From Mucilaginibacter celer (GTDB taxonomy: Bacteria; Bacteroidota; Bacteroidia; Sphingobacteriales; Sphingobacteriaceae): DNA of 64,000 bases. Shown here one piece after another: positions 2,331 through 60,600 of the stretch. Location of the stretch: NCBI RefSeq assembly GCF_003576455.2, contig NZ_CP032869.1, positions 4,402,001 to 4,466,000 on the forward strand, given 5' to 3'. Each line of letters starts with the position of its first letter. The stretch's first letter is position 1. The translations under genes and the position numbers were made by a program. The notes under the pieces were generated by a model. That model was given only the letters and a program-made list of their open reading frames with translations. It made no database searches and was not told the DNA's origin.

Positions 2331-3257
2331 ATGCATACCATATTAGGAGCCGGCGGCCCCGTAGCGAACGCCCTCACCAAACAATTAATAGCCCACAACG
2401 AAGCCATCCGTTTAGTTAGCCGCAAACCCGCTAAGGTTGATTACGATAAAGCAACCTGGCAAAAAGCTGATCTGCTTAATTATGATGAAGTATTGGCCGC
2501 CGCACAGGGATCAACCATTATTTACCTCGTTGCCGGATTAGTTTATGATAAAGACATCTGGCGCACGCAATGGCCGGTAATTATGCAAAACGTGATAAAC
2601 GTTACCAAAGCAACCGGTGCCCGTTTAATATTTTTTGATAACGTTTACATGTATGGGCTTGTAAACGGTGCCATGAAAGAAGATACGCCCTACAAACCCA
2701 GCAGTGTTAAAGGACAAATCCGTGCAGGTATTGCCGAAATGCTGATGAATGAAGTTAAAGCCGGAAATATTCGAGCCACCATTGCCCGTGCACCCGATTT
2801 TTACGGTACCGACTCGACCAATAGTTTTATTGATATGATGGTGCTGAGCAATTACGCCAAAAAGCAAAGCGCCAAATGGATAGGCGATGCAAACTGTAAA
2901 CACAATTTTATTTATGTGCCGGACGCAGGTAAAGCAATGTTCCTGCTTGGTCAAAATCCGGATAGTAACAACCAGATCTGGCACCTCCCTACCCCGCCTG
3001 CCATTACCGGTAAAGAATTTTTAAATATCGCCGCCCGGGTTTATAATGTTGAGCCGAAATACTCAAGTATCAATAAAGTTATGCTGTGGCTGGCCGGTTT
3101 ATTCAAAAAGGTGATTATGGGTACGGTTGAGATGTACTACCAATACGATCATGATTATATTTTTGATAGCAGCAAGTTTGAAAAGATATTCAACTTTAAG
3201 CCAACAAGTTATGAGGATGGGATAACTGAAATGTCGAAAACACTTTATAAGGGGTAA
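2331..3257 (+). CDS. NAD-dependent epimerase/dehydratase family protein
   Basis: A 308-aa Rossmann-fold protein of the atypical/extended SDR class. The N-terminal nucleotide-binding loop is GAGGPVANAL (residues 7-16), followed by the YLVAGL strand and the FFDNVYMYG region, where the catalytic Tyr lies in classical epimerases. The usual YxxxK is not obvious, so it may be an atypical SDR such as an NmrA- or epimerase-like redox protein. No signal peptide is present. It has its own likely promoter and sits behind a Crp/Fnr regulator gene. The substrate is unknown. Confidence 0.8.
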   Translation: MHTILGAGGPVANALTKQLIAHNEAIRLVSRKPAKVDYDKATWQKADLLNYDEVLAAAQGSTIIYLVAGLVYDKDIWRTQWPVIMQNVINVTKATGARLIFFDNVYMYGLVNGAMKEDTPYKPSSVKGQIRAGIAEMLMNEVKAGNIRATIARAPDFYGTDSTNSFIDMMVLSNYAKKQSAKWIGDANCKHNFIYVPDAGKAMFLLGQNPDSNNQIWHLPTPPAITGKEFLNIAARVYNVEPKYSSINKVMLWLAGLFKKVIMGTVEMYYQYDHDYIFDSSKFEKIFNFKPTSYEDGITEMSKTLYKG

Positions 3258-3279
3258 GTGAGAAGTATATGTTAAAAAA

Positions 3280-3360
3280 CGTCATAGCGCCCTGACTTTA
3301 TAGGGCGGATTTGTATAGCCCCTCTGCCTCCTGGGGATTGCTTCGTACCTCGCAATGACG
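3280..3360. repeat. Palindromic repeat, family A (CGTCATTGCGAGGTACGAAGCAATCCC), copy 1
   Basis: An 81-bp element whose right arm GGGATTGCTTCGTACC...CGCAATGACG is intact, while the left arm (CGTCATAGCGCCCTG) is decayed. Better copies are at 10584-10665 and 60506-60587, and a half copy is at 60291-60301. Confidence 0.8.
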
Positions 3361-3396
3361 ACTATTATAAATTTAAATAGATTAGAATTATTCGAG

Positions 3397-9324: not shown

Positions 9325-10515
9325 TTATTTTGTATAATAATCCACAGCCTCAATAATAACTGCACAGGCTTTCCTGATCTCATCATGCGTAATGATCAGC
9401 GGTGGTGCCAGCCTCATCGAGTTGCTGCAATGTAGAAACCAATCGGTTATTACACCGTTTTCAATGCAGCGATCTATTATTTTTTTATTCAGATCGAAGT
9501 TTTCCAGTTCGGCGGCAAGCATCAGGCCTTTGCCCCTCACCTCTTTGATAGCGGGGTGAACCAATAGCGAACGGAACAATGCTTCTTTTTCGGCTACGCC
9601 GGAAACCAGATCATTATCCAACAAAAACTCCAACGCGGCTAATCCCGCTGCACAGCAAACCGGGTGCCCTCCAAAAGTGGTGATATGACCGAGGATAGGA
9701 TTTTCCTTCAGCACATCCATAATTTGGCTTGATGAAATAAACGCACCTATCGGCATGCCGCCTCCCAAAGCTTTGGCCAGTAACAGAATATCGGGCACAA
9801 TATCAAAATGCTCAAAAGCAAATAGCCTGCCCGTACGACCGAATGCTGCCTGGATCTCATCTAATATCAGCAGTGTACCTGTTTCTGTACAACGGGCGCG
9901 CAAAGCCTGCATATAGGCTACATCAGGCACGCGGATACCGGCCTCGCCCTGTACGGTTTCTATAATAACGCAGGCTGTTTGTTCGGTTATTAATTGAAGA
10001 TCATCAACCTCATTAAAACGAATAAAATTAATCCCAGGCAACAGCGGACGGTAAGCTTTCTTAAATTCCTCGTTACCCATTACACTTAACGCGCCGTTGG
10101 TGCTACCATGATATGAATTATAACATGAAATAATCTGGCTTCTGCCGGTAAAACGTTTGGCCAATTTCAAAGCTCCCTCCACCGCCTCGGCACCTGAGTT
10201 AGTAAAATACACCGACTGCAAATTATCCGGCAGTACTGAGACCAGTTTTTCGGCAAAACGTACCTGCGGGGTTTGTACGTACTCGCCGTAAACCATCAGG
10301 TGCATGTATTTATCAACCTGCTGTTTAATGGCATCGATAACATACGGGTTGCTGTGGCCTAAACTGCTTACGCCAATGCCGGATATCAGATCAATATACG
10401 GCTTGCCCTCCGCGTTGTACATGTAGATGCCTTCGGCGCGTTCAAACTCGAGTAATAGCGGGAAATTTGTGGTTTGAGCGTTATTGGCTAAAAAAAGCTG
10501 GCGAAGAGTGGTCAT
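9325..10515 (-). CDS. Class III pyridoxal-phosphate aminotransferase
   Basis: A 396-aa PLP enzyme of the acetylornithine/ornithine/4-aminobutyrate aminotransferase group. Motifs include FTNSGAEAVEGALKLAK (residues 104-120), which binds the cofactor phosphate, the LLILDEIQAAFGRTGR segment with Asp219, and the Schiff-base Lys248 in AKALGGGMPIGAF. The length is typical. It is not in an arg cluster, so the substrate (ornithine, acetylornithine or another omega-amine) cannot be assigned. A family A palindrome separates it from the operon on its right, and it appears to be transcribed alone. Confidence 0.9.
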   Translation of the reverse strand: MTTLRQLFLANNAQTTNFPLLLEFERAEGIYMYNAEGKPYIDLISGIGVSSLGHSNPYVIDAIKQQVDKYMHLMVYGEYVQTPQVRFAEKLVSVLPDNLQSVYFTNSGAEAVEGALKLAKRFTGRSQIISCYNSYHGSTNGALSVMGNEEFKKAYRPLLPGINFIRFNEVDDLQLITEQTACVIIETVQGEAGIRVPDVAYMQALRARCTETGTLLILDEIQAAFGRTGRLFAFEHFDIVPDILLLAKALGGGMPIGAFISSSQIMDVLKENPILGHITTFGGHPVCCAAGLAALEFLLDNDLVSGVAEKEALFRSLLVHPAIKEVRGKGLMLAAELENFDLNKKIIDRCIENGVITDWFLHCSNSMRLAPPLIITHDEIRKACAVIIEAVDYYTK

Positions 10516-10583
10516 GATGATTAGTTCTAAGTCTTAAGTTTAAGATCTTGAGTCGTTTTCAGGAGCAATTGTTATCTAACAGC

Positions 10584-10665
10584 CGTCATTGCGAGGTACG
10601 AAGCAATCCCCGATTTGCAGGTCCGCCCTGTACAGTTTGGGATTGCTTCGTGCCTCGCAATGACG
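10584..10665. repeat. Palindromic repeat, family A, copy 2
   Basis: An 82-bp element with near-perfect arms: CGTCATTGCGAGGTACGAAG at the left, and its complement with one difference at the right end. The core is about 25 bp. It sits between two minus-strand transcription units. The short ORF across it (10548-10778) is a product of the repeat and is not counted as a gene. Confidence 0.85.
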
Positions 10666-10689
10666 CCTCGGGAGATATTACCGACAAAG

Positions 10690-10801: not shown

Positions 10802-11308
10802 TCAATTCCCCGCTCTCTCACTCCGCTCGCTCAACTGTTTAATGAGTTCATCATTAAACTCCTGTTCGCTTTTGTACAGGATGCTCACCTTTTCGGGTGG
10901 AAGGATTTTGGAGAACGAATCGCGGTAGCGTTTGCGGATGCCTACCAGTTGGCTTTCGTAATAAATTTCTTTATCTATTTGCTCGGTACCGTTGGCAGAT
11001 GAGTTGGAGTTATTTAAACGTTTCAGGATGCGTACAGCTGTTAGTTCCTGCTGGTACTGGTTGTACAGCGGCCAAAATTTGTTGGCTTCATCGTCGGTTA
11101 AATCAAGCTGCCTGCTGATGTATCGGTTACGGGCGGCTTCAAGCTTTTTACCCATCGCTCCCTTTCTGTTACCATTAGGGCGTACGGGATTAAGCTCGGG
11201 CCGGGTAGGTGTTTGAGCGGGTACGAAGCGGTTTACCTGCGCCTGCCCCTCATAGCCTATCGCCATAACAAATAACACAATACAAATATGCCTGATCCAA
11301 ATACTCAT
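10802..11308 (-). CDS. Spy/CpxP-like periplasmic protein
   Basis: A 168-aa exported protein with an N-terminal signal peptide (residues 1 to about 23, ending GYEGQAQ). A Pro/Arg-rich linker follows, then a helical domain with LDLTDDEANKFWPLYNQYQQ and KILPPEKVSILYKSEQEF. The LTxxEA...W..Y pattern resembles the LTxxQ helices of Spy/CpxP periplasmic chaperones or stress sensors. It ends in a charged helix. It is the last gene of the ECF sigma operon, 18 bp after the repeat membrane protein, so it is likely made with them and may feed an envelope signal to the system. That role is inference. Confidence 0.75.
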   Translation of the reverse strand: MSIWIRHICIVLFVMAIGYEGQAQVNRFVPAQTPTRPELNPVRPNGNRKGAMGKKLEAARNRYISRQLDLTDDEANKFWPLYNQYQQELTAVRILKRLNNSNSSANGTEQIDKEIYYESQLVGIRKRYRDSFSKILPPEKVSILYKSEQEFNDELIKQLSERSERAGN

Positions 11309-11326: not shown

Positions 11327-12364
11327 TTAATTATCTATATAATCCGACAGATCTTCGTCTGCATTGCTTGCATTGCCTTTTTGGTTCGCATCCATCAGTG
11401 TACGGGTGTCGCTGGCGTCCATGTGTAACTGAAGGTAGCTTCTTATTTCATCAACCGGTACGGATGATACCTCTTCGTGCAAATAAGAGTGGTTATGATC
11501 CGGAGCCTGGATATCGCCCCTGAAAATAACACCTACACCCAGTATCAAAGCAAAACAAGCCGCGGTAGCATACCTGATGGTTGGCGAAGCCCAAAGCTTC
11601 CTCACCATGCCTTTTTTCTGAACAGGTTTATTTTTGTTGATGCTTACAACATTATCAGGTTCAAGCACAACTTCTACCCCGGCATTAACGGTTTTATCCA
11701 GTATGCGCTGGTTAAGCTGCTCAAAGTAGTTCATCGGCACAACAAAACCTTCTTCTTCCATATTCATGGCTTCCTCAACCGCTATGCGGCTTTGGATGTT
11801 GGCGCTCAGCTCCTCAAAATAGTTTTCAGGAACCCTAAACCCCTCATCGCCCATGGCTTCTTCAATGGCTATCCGGCTTTGAATGTTGCTGCTCAGTTCG
11901 TCAAAATAACCTTCCGGCACTGTAAAACCTTCATCACTCATGGCCTCCTCAACCGCTATGCGGCTTTGGATATTGCTGCTCAGCTCGTTAAAATAATTAT
12001 CGGGCACCGTAAAGCCCTCGCCCGCATCTATGGCTTCATCAACCACAATACGGCTTTTGATGTTGCTGCTTAGCTCATCAAAGTAGTTTTCGGGTACGGT
12101 AAACCCCGAATCTCCGGCGCTAAAAGCACTTTCAATATTTATACGGCTCTGGATGTTGCTCTTTAACTCGTCGAAGTAGTTCTGCGGTACAGTGTAACCT
12201 GCAGATGGATAATTTTTTAATCCCTCAAGCCTTATGCGTGTTGTAATGTGCTGCGCTAACTCATGAAAATAGCCTTCAGGCACTGTGAACGGGTTAGTTG
12301 TGCTAACCTGTTTCAGCGCGATGAAATCATCCAGCCATTCCCTATTGTCCATATCGCTTTTCAT
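11327..12364 (-). CDS. Membrane protein with seven VPxxYFxxL repeats, putative anti-sigma factor
   Basis: A 345-aa protein from the ATG at 12364 (an upstream TTG at 12370 would add two residues). Residues 27-225 hold seven copies of a 29-31-residue unit, (F/Y)xVPxxYFxxLxxxIxxRI, starting at about 27, 57, 88, 118, 147, 176 and 207. The centre copies are nearly identical. One membrane helix follows at about 264-281 (YATAACFALILGVGVIF), after a basic KKGMVRK segment, then a short His/Asp-rich C-terminal tail. This arrangement and its position directly behind an ECF sigma gene suggest an anti-sigma or sigma-partner role. It lacks a recognisable zinc-binding anti-sigma motif, so this is inferred from context only. 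Confidence 0.75.
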   Translation of the reverse strand: MKSDMDNREWLDDFIALKQVSTTNPFTVPEGYFHELAQHITTRIRLEGLKNYPSAGYTVPQNYFDELKSNIQSRINIESAFSAGDSGFTVPENYFDELSSNIKSRIVVDEAIDAGEGFTVPDNYFNELSSNIQSRIAVEEAMSDEGFTVPEGYFDELSSNIQSRIAIEEAMGDEGFRVPENYFEELSANIQSRIAVEEAMNMEEEGFVVPMNYFEQLNQRILDKTVNAGVEVVLEPDNVVSINKNKPVQKKGMVRKLWASPTIRYATAACFALILGVGVIFRGDIQAPDHNHSYLHEEVSSVPVDEIRSYLQLHMDASDTRTLMDANQKGNASNADEDLSDYIDN

Positions 12365-12415
12365 ACACAACTATAGATTGGTATAGTGCTAAAAGGTTTA
12401 ACGTAAATTAAAAAA

Positions 12416-12970
12416 TTAATCTTTTCCCAGCAAGTGCGCCTCTATCTTCTTGACTGCCAGGTGAAAAGATGCTTTTAAAGCCCCAACACTGGTACCCAAA
12501 ACCTGCGACATTTCCTCATACTTCATGTCTTCATAGTATTTCATATTGAAAACAAGCCGTTGTTTTTCGGGCAGGGTAAGCAGGGCTTCCTGTAGTTTAC
12601 GCTGCGCCGCGTCGCCGTTAAAATAGGTCGAGTCGGCCAGTGTATCGGCCAGCTCGTAAGCAACATCATCCAACGGTATATTATTTTTCTGTTTTTTCTT
12701 GTTCAGAAAAGTAATACACTCGTTGGATGCTATCCTGTACATCCAGGTGTACAGTTGCGCGTCGTTTCTGAAACCGGCAAGGTTTTTCCAAACCTTTACA
12801 AAAACATCCTGAACAAGGTCATCCGCGTCGTCATGATCAACAACCATGCGGCGGATGTGCCAGTATATTTTCTGCTGGTACTTTTTCAACAACAGGTTAA
12901 ACGCCTCATTCCGGGTCTTTTCGTCCTGGAATTTGCTTAATATTTCTGAATCTTCAACCTGTACCGACAT
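12416..12970 (-). CDS. ECF-subfamily RNA polymerase sigma factor
   Basis: A 184-aa sigma70-family protein with only regions 2 and 4. Region 2 has DDADDLVQDVFVKVWKNL and the -10-reading helix AQLYTWMYRIASNECI. Region 4 is LPEKQRLVFNMKYYEDMKYEEMSQVLGTSVGALKASFHLAVKKI, with a clear helix-turn-helix. The start at 12970 is the natural one. It is the first of three tightly spaced genes with the seven-repeat membrane protein and the Spy-like protein, forming a probable envelope-signal cassette. The cassette begins 31 bp after the transketolase C-terminal gene, so read-through from that operon is also possible. Confidence 0.93.
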   Translation of the reverse strand: MSVQVEDSEILSKFQDEKTRNEAFNLLLKKYQQKIYWHIRRMVVDHDDADDLVQDVFVKVWKNLAGFRNDAQLYTWMYRIASNECITFLNKKKQKNNIPLDDVAYELADTLADSTYFNGDAAQRKLQEALLTLPEKQRLVFNMKYYEDMKYEEMSQVLGTSVGALKASFHLAVKKIEAHLLGKD

Positions 12971-13001: not shown

Positions 13002-13967
13002 TTAAGCCTTTTTGTTTTTTCTTTCGATCGCCTTTTTAGCTGCTGCCACAATATGCTCTGCATCCAGGCCATATTTGGTCATCAGTTGTGCAGGCGTACC
13101 GCTTTCGCCAAAGCTGTCGTTAACAGCTACGTACTCTTGCGGGGTTGGGTTGTGTACAGCCAATACTTGTGCAACGCTATCACCCAAACCACCTAAACGG
13201 TTATGCTCTTCGGCTGTAACTACGCAACCGGTTTTAGCTACAGATTTTAATATAGCCTCAGCATCAAGAGGTTTAATGGTGTGGATGTTAATAATCTCGG
13301 CATCGATACCTTCTTCAGCCAGTTTCTCACCAGCCAAAATAGCTTCCCATACCAGGTGACCGGTGGCGAAGATACTTACATCAGCACCTTCATTAACCAT
13401 CCAGGCTTTACCAATTTCAAATTTCTGATCAGCATCGGTAAAGATCGGAACAACCGGGCGACCGAAACGTAAATAAACCGGGCCTTCGTACTCGGCAATA
13501 GCCATAGTAGCAGCTTTGGTTTGGTTATAATCGCAAGGGTTAATCACAGTCATGCCTGGTAACATTTTCATCAGGCCGATATCCTCCAGAATCTGGTGGG
13601 TAGCGCCATCCTCGCCCAAAGTTAAACCAGCGTGTGAAGCGCAAATTTTAACGTTTTTGTTTGAGTAAGCTACCGATTGACGGATCTGATCGTAAACACG
13701 GCCTGTAGAGAAGTTAGCAAATGTACCGGTGAAAGGAATTTTACCGCCAATGGTCATACCGGCAGCAATACCGATCATGTTAGCTTCGGCAATACCTGTT
13801 TGTACAAAACGCTCAGGAAATTCATTAATAAAATCCTGCATTTTTAACGAGCCTACAAGGTCGGCACAAAGGGCAACAACCTGGTCGTTTTTTCTGCCGG
13901 CTTCCAGCAACCCGGCACCAAAGCCCGAGCGGGTATCTTTTTTATCTGTGTAAGTGTATTTTTTCAT
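13002..13967 (-). CDS. Transketolase, C-terminal subunit
   Basis: A 321-aa protein matching the pyrimidine-binding and C-terminal domains of transketolase: GFGAGLLEAGRKND at the start, the GIAEANMIGIAAGM loop carrying the Glu that activates thiamine diphosphate, and the C-terminal GDSVAQVLA region. It needs the N-terminal subunit encoded just upstream to form an active enzyme of the non-oxidative pentose phosphate pathway. Split transketolases are common in Bacteroidetes and archaea, so this is not a frameshift. The 101-bp gap to its partner contains a perfect 20-bp palindrome (14039-14058). Confidence 0.93.
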   Translation of the reverse strand: MKKYTYTDKKDTRSGFGAGLLEAGRKNDQVVALCADLVGSLKMQDFINEFPERFVQTGIAEANMIGIAAGMTIGGKIPFTGTFANFSTGRVYDQIRQSVAYSNKNVKICASHAGLTLGEDGATHQILEDIGLMKMLPGMTVINPCDYNQTKAATMAIAEYEGPVYLRFGRPVVPIFTDADQKFEIGKAWMVNEGADVSIFATGHLVWEAILAGEKLAEEGIDAEIINIHTIKPLDAEAILKSVAKTGCVVTAEEHNRLGGLGDSVAQVLAVHNPTPQEYVAVNDSFGESGTPAQLMTKYGLDAEHIVAAAKKAIERKNKKA

Positions 13968-60290: not shown

Positions 60291-60600
60291 CGTCATTGCG
60301 AGTAAGTAAAAGCCGATGCCCCTGAATGAGTATATGACATTAGGCGGGATGGCATGCCACCCTTAGCAAATAAAAGCCCACGCCTCTGAAGGAGTATATG
60401 ACATGAGGCGGGTGGGCCTGTCACTCTGAGCCTGTCGAAGAGTCGCGCGCAGAGGCCCTGCCCACCACACTTCGACAGGCTCAGCATGACACCCATTTTT
60501 AACTTCGTCATTGCGAGGTACGAAGCAATCCCCGATCAGCAGAGCCGCTCTGTATTGTTCGCGATTGCTTCGTACCTCGCAATGACGCTTTTATAGGTAT
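60291..60600. repeat. Composite repeat region before miaA
   Basis: This 334-bp gap holds, in order: a half family A arm (60291-60301), a direct repeat of about 64 bp (TAAAAGCC.. GAGTATATGACAT.AGGCGGG, starting near 60307 and 60371), the inverted element GTCACTCTGAGCCTGTCGAAG / CTTCGACAGGCTCAGCATGAC (60420-60490), and a full family A palindrome (60506-60587). No gene is seen. Confidence 0.8.
60506..60587. repeat. Palindromic repeat, family A, copy 3
   Basis: The 82-bp ends CGTCATTGCGAGGTACGAAG and CTTCGTACCTCGCAATGACG are perfectly complementary. The core GATCAGCAGAGCCGCTCTG resembles that of the 10584-10665 copy. Confidence 0.9.

Follow-up and report, generated by a model that had tools for sequence, protein, structure and literature searches.

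The closest described relative of the operon analysed here is that of Phocaeicola vulgatus, in which a sigma/anti-sigma pair, cirY-cirZ, is co-transcribed with spy (Elmekki et al. 2026, PMC13114119). According to the extracts of that paper used here, cirY, cirZ, and spy are upregulated 143-, 132-, and 155-fold, respectively, in DSS colitis, and deletion of cirZ gives the strongest rise in cirY, spy, and two downstream genes, which encode a carbohydrate-binding hydrolase and a glucosaminidase with LysM. The same extracts describe a second spy behind another sigma/anti-sigma pair and before a SusC/D pair, and report that insertions in genes of this group were not under-represented in colitis (PMC13114119). 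Class I anti-sigma factors bind sigma4 through helix 1 and sigma2 through helix 4, which is carried on a flexible linker (PMC7406223). In the extracts of that second paper, a class I anti-sigma factor is found near 6% of Bacteroidetes ECF sigma factors, compared with 32% over all phyla, and what holds the remaining Bacteroidetes ECFs is left open (PMC7406223).

We examined a 64 000-nucleotide stretch (the window) of the genome of Mucilaginibacter celer, which is 7.1 Mb in a single contig. In the window, the gene of an ECF sigma factor is followed by that of a membrane protein with seven VPxxYF repeats and by that of a Spy-like protein. The best overall explanation, to which we give a probability of about 0.78, is that the repeat protein is a membrane anti-sigma factor in which the motif units are the sigma-binding element and have been amplified under selection. 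Anti-sigma factors of the CirZ kind are already known, whereas the motif common to the family, the extent of its distribution, and its amplification appear to be new. Neither the motif string nor a report of a repeated-motif anti-sigma factor was found in open-licence PMC papers, in agreement with a preliminary description of the locus, which knew of no anti-sigma family with such an array.

Results

The three genes lie on the minus strand in the order ECF sigma factor, repeat protein, and Spy-like protein. The ECF gene (12416..12970, minus strand) encodes a protein of 184 aa with Pfam matches to Sigma70_r2 (1.6e-16) and Sigma70_r4_2 (7.4e-15), and sigma trees group it, as an orthologue, with the sigma factors of all operons of the family, in the clade of P. 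vulgatus CirY. The repeat gene, for the proposed anti-sigma factor (11327..12370, minus strand), gives 347 aa from a TTG at 12370 or 345 aa from an ATG at 12364, and its relatives start at the position matching this ATG. The gap from the ECF stop is 51 bp to the ATG and 45 bp to the TTG, and the gap from the repeat gene to the Spy-like gene is 18 bp; the spacing of 18–51 bp on one strand given in the preliminary description thus holds. The Spy-like gene had been placed within 11327–12970, and it actually lies outside, at 10802..11308 (minus strand). It encodes 168 aa with a signal-peptide-like N-terminus and is the downstream partner in all of the operons of the class that were examined.

The repeat protein consists of cytosolic repeats, a single membrane helix at about residues 267–283 (11522..11572, minus strand; a hydrophobic run in the sequence), and a periplasmic tail of about 64 residues (11330..11521, minus strand). 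The N-terminal side of the helix is rich in lysine and arginine, so the repeats are presumably inside. The tail holds two short elements, xIxxYL and LxxYI, which recur in the alignment with relatives. No Pfam or NCBIfam family scored above its cut-off for this protein; all of the matches were far below, and assignment to a named family was rejected for this reason.

A split transketolase (13002–13967) lies upstream of the operon and an aminotransferase gene (9325–10515) downstream, both on the same strand, and these neighbours are kept around the operon in many relatives. A transketolase half-gene is found near the ECF gene, on the same strand, in 54/153 loci, many of which end too soon to show it, and this conservation suggests that the locus is old and has been inherited vertically. 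A near-perfect palindrome with 27-bp arms (10575–10672) lies between the Spy-like gene and the gene that follows it, and occurs again at 60506–60588. Its DNA fold has −35.5 kcal/mol (z = −8.7), and the genome carries it in 40 or more places (80 matches over both strands, with 40 of 162 candidates scored), as for a REP-like or MITE-like element.

The array has seven units with the core F-x-V-P-x-x-Y-F-x-x-L-x-x-x-I-x-x-R-I. The prolines are at residues 31, 62, 93, 123, 152, 181, and 212, in steps of 29–31, which bears out the earlier reading of seven repeats of 29–31 residues before one membrane helix. The motif scan and a unit profile place the cores, all on the minus strand, at 12233..12289 (repeat 1, a distinct first unit, FTVPEGYFHELAQHITTRI), 12140..12196 (repeat 2), 12047..12103 (repeat 3), 11957..12013 (repeat 4), 11870..11926 (repeat 5), 11783..11839 (repeat 6), and 11690..11746 (repeat 7, a distinct last unit with an ILDKT ending). 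TRF finds an 87-bp unit in 3.9 copies in the gene. A single-unit profile made from relatives recovers all seven units, with E values from 2e-11 to 3e-4, and over the 7.1-Mb genome its next best match outside the repeat protein has an E of only 1.06. Since all seven units are matched and nothing else in the genome falls below E = 1, the array is more than a chance resemblance.

The centre repeats had been described as almost identical and the array as recently grown, and neither statement is supported by closer comparison. Repeats 3–6 are 76–85% identical in protein and 73–82% in DNA over a 21-residue core, and repeats 2–6 are 66–85% identical in protein. Pairwise pS among repeats 2–6 ranges from 0.39 to saturated, with most pairs near saturation (21 codons per comparison), and on this divergence we reject the reading of recent growth for the window array. 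Furthermore, the seven-unit array is common to relatives that are 88–91% identical across the whole protein, and the named relatives are Mucilaginibacter species. In five species pairs among L001–L004, the nine motif codons have dN/dS of 0.00–0.02 over all seven repeats, and the other core codons 0.13–0.19. In the middle repeats of arrays with at least five units, P is kept in 204/206, Y in 201/206, and F in 206/206; the first and last units are unlike the middle ones, yet they are kept between species. The synonymous divergence together with the low dN/dS of the motif indicates that the window copies are old and that each motif is held by strong purifying selection; gene conversion may contribute to the similarity of the copies. 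A recent expansion is present in another species, L011, in which repeats 4–6 are 90–100% identical in protein and 92–98% in DNA.

The order ECF, repeat protein, and Spy-like protein was seen in 58/58 of the first loci, with some genomes counted twice. A sample of 395 genomes of the phylum, 98 of them from the class of the window genome and 297 others, was then covered with a profile of the middle protein. It matches 99/395 genomes: 91/98 of the class, M. celer included, and 8/297 of the others. In all 91 matched class genomes, the ECF gene precedes and the Spy-like gene follows the gene of the middle protein, the Spy-like calls being made with profiles iterated on those same loci. Homologues are thus found beside ECF genes in 91/91, and not mostly away from them. 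Among the matches listed in a single-motif search, which reached an E of about 0.003, are six more operons (L265–L270), of which four belong to class genomes that the profile had not matched, so the operon is present in at least 95/98 class genomes. Among the eight matches outside the class, the operon is present in L208, L210, L215, and L221 and absent in L201 and L206 (G148 and G215 excluded). There were 13 further profile matches in genomes already counted. One of these, L220, is a second operon; the other 12 (L202–L205, L207, L209, L211, L212, L214, L216, L217, and L219) are ECF-linked proteins that were matched via the membrane region and have no proper motif. In the M. celer genome, no motif was found in the gene next to any of the 49 other ECFs (53 stretches; 40 of the ECFs had a next ORF in range). 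The single-motif search also gave a VPKGYFDELxxxIN segment in one protein family, L260–L264, with no ECF or Spy-like gene nearby; two of these five, when scanned, are ScpB, and the group is taken as unrelated, probably a chance match.

Motif number was compared over 145 distinct operons. At least one motif is present in 142/145, with a range of 1–8, at a threshold exceeded by 0.14% of 725 shuffled proteins. There is one motif in 53 operons, two in 23, three in 15, four in 1, five in 10, six in 25, seven in 14, and eight in 1, in a set that is rich in Mucilaginibacter, whose counts are 5–8. The three operons with none have degenerate forms. The sigma factors of the operons form one clade apart from other ECFs (SH-aLRT 98; 89 rows from operons and 11 from elsewhere) in quick trees with long outgroup branches.

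G459 is a P. vulgatus-type genome with a size like that of P. vulgatus ATCC 8482, which is not the strain of Elmekki et al. It carries both of the operons described in that work. In the first (L318), the ECF gene is followed by genes for a 120-aa protein (MPYRTPDGFFGKMQKQVLERTQ), a Spy-like protein, CBM9_2 (2.7e-109), and Glucosaminidase (9.8e-42) with LysM (3.3e-18); in the second (L319), by genes for a 143-aa protein (NPFMVPEGYFDNFSKELMNKLPEK), a Spy-like protein, a SusC-like protein, and, by eye, a SusD-like protein. Alignment of CirZ by hhalign with the family profile A2, which takes in the C-terminal half of the window protein, gives a remote match with 95.3% probability and E = 2.3e-8 over 63 columns, spanning the motif and the membrane helix. 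The CirZ motif has FF instead of YF (TPDGFF), and its score was equalled by 0/2000 shuffles. The two sigma factors of G459 fall inside the clade of the operons (SH-aLRT 98). Taken together, the gene order, the profile match, and the sigma trees place cirY-cirZ-spy in the family of the window operon, and by this homology the anti-sigma role would extend to the window protein. The anti-sigma role proposed in the preliminary description thus gains from an operon order that all of the examined class members share and from a homologue that acts as an anti-sigma factor by deletion.

Which part of the protein is likely to bind sigma? Members of 120–140 aa have a cytosolic part of about 45 residues, in which inspection shows little besides the motif. 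Four loci outside the class (L208, L215, L265, and L266) encode an N-terminal domain, then one motif and the membrane helix, with the ECF gene upstream and the Spy-like gene downstream. The domain scores above the Pfam cut-off for zf-HC2 (22.2 bits) in L208 (24.5), L215 (37.3), and L266 (32.8), and L265 has, by eye, a similar helical N-terminal domain with no Pfam match. These four form one clade outside the class (support 93 and 86 in two sigma trees), and L221, which like the class members has no such domain, branches outside all others. The class may have lost helices 1–3, or the domain-bearing lineages may have gained a zinc-finger domain. In the domain-bearing proteins, the motif stands at the place of helix 4 of class I factors, which by analogy makes it a candidate sigma binder.

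A structural model was made by AlphaFold, with a 60-row alignment, for an artificial read-through chain of the sigma factor, one-motif protein, and Spy-like protein of locus L175, so that the sigma factor was modelled only within the chain. The model has pLDDT 80 and pTM 0.51, and the docking was read from the best of five models. The motif block has pLDDT values of 82, 91, and 78, and the flanks 53, 65, and 57. The only strand or bridge residues are sigma residue 114, which lies in the sigma2–sigma4 linker, and the conserved F208 of the motif; these two are thus predicted to pair. Residue 114 is F in 111/141 operon sigma factors, and the four most frequent residues at this position in the 49 other ECFs of M. 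celer do not include F. The linker sequence YFxGD occurs in 68/141 operon sigma factors and 0/49 of those other ECFs, and is absent in the domain-bearing loci shown (two of the four listed). In family f22 (L159, L164, L171, L173, L178, L184, L191, and L194), the motif has decayed to LF, MF, or FF and, in the rows shown, the sigma linker has lost YFxGD; the two partners may have changed together.

The fold-search rows covered only the sigma part of the L175 model. Over both domains, it superposes on SigW of SigW-RsiW (Z 17.0, 2.5 Å, 156 aa) and on CnrH of CnrH-CnrY (4cxf; Z 15.7, 2.3 Å, 154 aa). Free SigG1 superposes at 5.0 Å (Z 14.2), SigE-RseA and SigK-RskA only at 10–12 Å, and several RNA-polymerase-bound ECFs, over both domains, only at 20–27 Å. 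A model of the window sigma factor with its seven repeats, from an alignment that deliberately had no paired single-motif rows, has pLDDT 59 and pTM 0.31 and shows every repeat as a helix beginning at the Y of YF, with no bridge or contact. It is a failure to reproduce the docking of the L175 model. The earlier suggestion that the repeats could bind sigma is plausible and has indirect support: single-motif forms, a class I domain with the motif in four loci, and one docking model speak for it, and the window model shows no docking.

What is the function of the Spy-like protein? The window protein has no match to PF07813 (Spy/LTXXQ) at E up to 1, and a relative, L112, scores 16.4 bits against a cut-off of 24.3. 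The Spy-like part of the L175 model has four long helices. A profile search of the PDB brought up only 5ihf (0.0017) and matches weaker than this, with no Spy, CpxP, ZraP, or CnrX chain listed. In L272, a Bacteroidales-type genome, a second short Spy-like gene (3026–3376) lies behind the operon's own; it scores 24.7 bits for LTXXQ (cut-off 24.3), and two FGE-sulfatase-domain genes are next to it. The protein had been called a sensor, for which we found no evidence. In P. vulgatus, spy shares a transcript with cirYZ and rises on cirZ deletion, so that there it is an output at the least, and a sensing role is possible.

Discussion

We conclude, from sequence comparisons, that the repeat protein is very probably a membrane-bound anti-sigma factor of the adjoining ECF, and that the VPxxYF motif is probably the element that binds it. 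Each unit would consist of an F edge residue, a proline cap, and an amphipathic helix of 14–21 residues, and one such unit would be enough in most relatives. At rest, the units would keep sigma at the membrane in a compact form unable to join RNA polymerase. An envelope signal, perceived via the periplasmic tail, perhaps through the Spy-like chaperone and perhaps by proteolysis, would free sigma, which would then raise the expression of the operon that encodes it, the Spy-like chaperone included. Mucilaginibacter and other Sphingobacteriaceae have an amplified unit, with all copies kept under selection, and this should increase the retention of sigma, through a larger number of sites or more frequent rebinding. 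Simultaneous binding of sigma by several repeats is conceivable, at somewhat under even odds. On a similarly tentative footing, we suggest that these proteins may be a minimal Bacteroidota class of anti-sigma factors in which one short helix motif binds, single in most lineages and present in up to eight copies elsewhere, where it would give a multivalent membrane store of sigma with capacity or threshold set by repeat number.

Several other explanations were considered. The operon could be an effector scaffold that does not control sigma, the ECF gene being merely co-inherited, and synteny alone does not prove an interaction; with the deletion phenotype of the homologue cirZ, the operon order in 91/91, and class I anti-sigma architecture by Pfam in three loci, we regard this as very improbable. 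Alternatively, the protein could be an anti-sigma factor that contacts sigma through, e.g., the N-terminal 28 residues or the juxtamembrane segment, with VPxxYF binding RNA polymerase, a protease, or a chaperone. Such an arrangement would fit the lack of docking in the window model and those lineages in which the sigma linker motif varies while VPxxYF stays. It is nevertheless quite unlikely because the cytosolic part of the minimal members holds little besides the motif, the motif contacts sigma in the L175 model, and it takes the helix 4 place in L208, L215, L265, and L266.

Even if the motif is the sigma binder, as we prefer, the extra repeats could have arisen neutrally through slippage, with no more than one or two copies doing the work. 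Copy number does differ between species, L011 has expanded recently, and it is the first and last units that are distinct. All of the copies, however, retain P, Y, F, L, and I; in five species pairs the motif codons evolve at a dN/dS of 0.00–0.02 across all seven units; and synonymous sites show the window copies to be old. Gene conversion could mimic this pattern in part; we consider neutrality unlikely. A further proposal concerns the signal: the Spy-like protein could be a receptor that binds the periplasmic tail, in the manner of CnrX with CnrY-CnrH and CpxP with CpxA. Its position as the fixed third gene and the recurrence of the tail elements agree with this. The tail, however, has low pLDDT (block means 41–75), no contact between tail and Spy-like protein is evident in the L175 model, and spy acts as a regulon member in P. 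vulgatus. A receptor role seems possible, though less likely than not.

Within the anti-sigma reading that we favour, the natural variants with 1–8 copies of the unit allow a direct test of how a stress switch depends on the number of its binding sites. The most similar described system is CirYZ-Spy, with the same gene order as the window, a sigma factor in the same clade, and an anti-sigma function assigned to CirZ by deletion. CirZ differs in having 120 aa and one divergent motif, whereas the window protein has seven motifs, and the extracts of PMC13114119 make no mention of a motif, family, or arrays. In the class II system CnrY-CnrX-CnrH, CnrY is also a very short membrane-tethered sigma binder, with two short helices around CnrH. 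The modelled operon sigma superposes on CnrH as given above and resembles it in conformation. In contrast to that system, the motif of the window protein is repeated and the third gene product looks secreted. This third gene is presumably a partner of the Spy/CnrX type.

The Dma and Reo anti-sigma factors, in the extracts describing them, are likewise from this phylum and not of class I; their chains extend to the outer membrane (PMC13114119). The window protein has only about 64 residues after its single membrane helix. In comparison with class I, the motif of four loci outside the class of M. celer occupies the helix 4 position after the N-terminal domain. The window protein and the Bacteroidia-type members lack helices 1–3 and zf-HC2, no zf-HC2 or class I domain being matched in the window protein in Pfam at E up to 1, and the window repeats are proposed to correspond to helix 4. 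The operon thus offers a recognisable motif for one group of the Bacteroidetes ECFs that have no class I factor nearby, tied to the proven case of CirZ.
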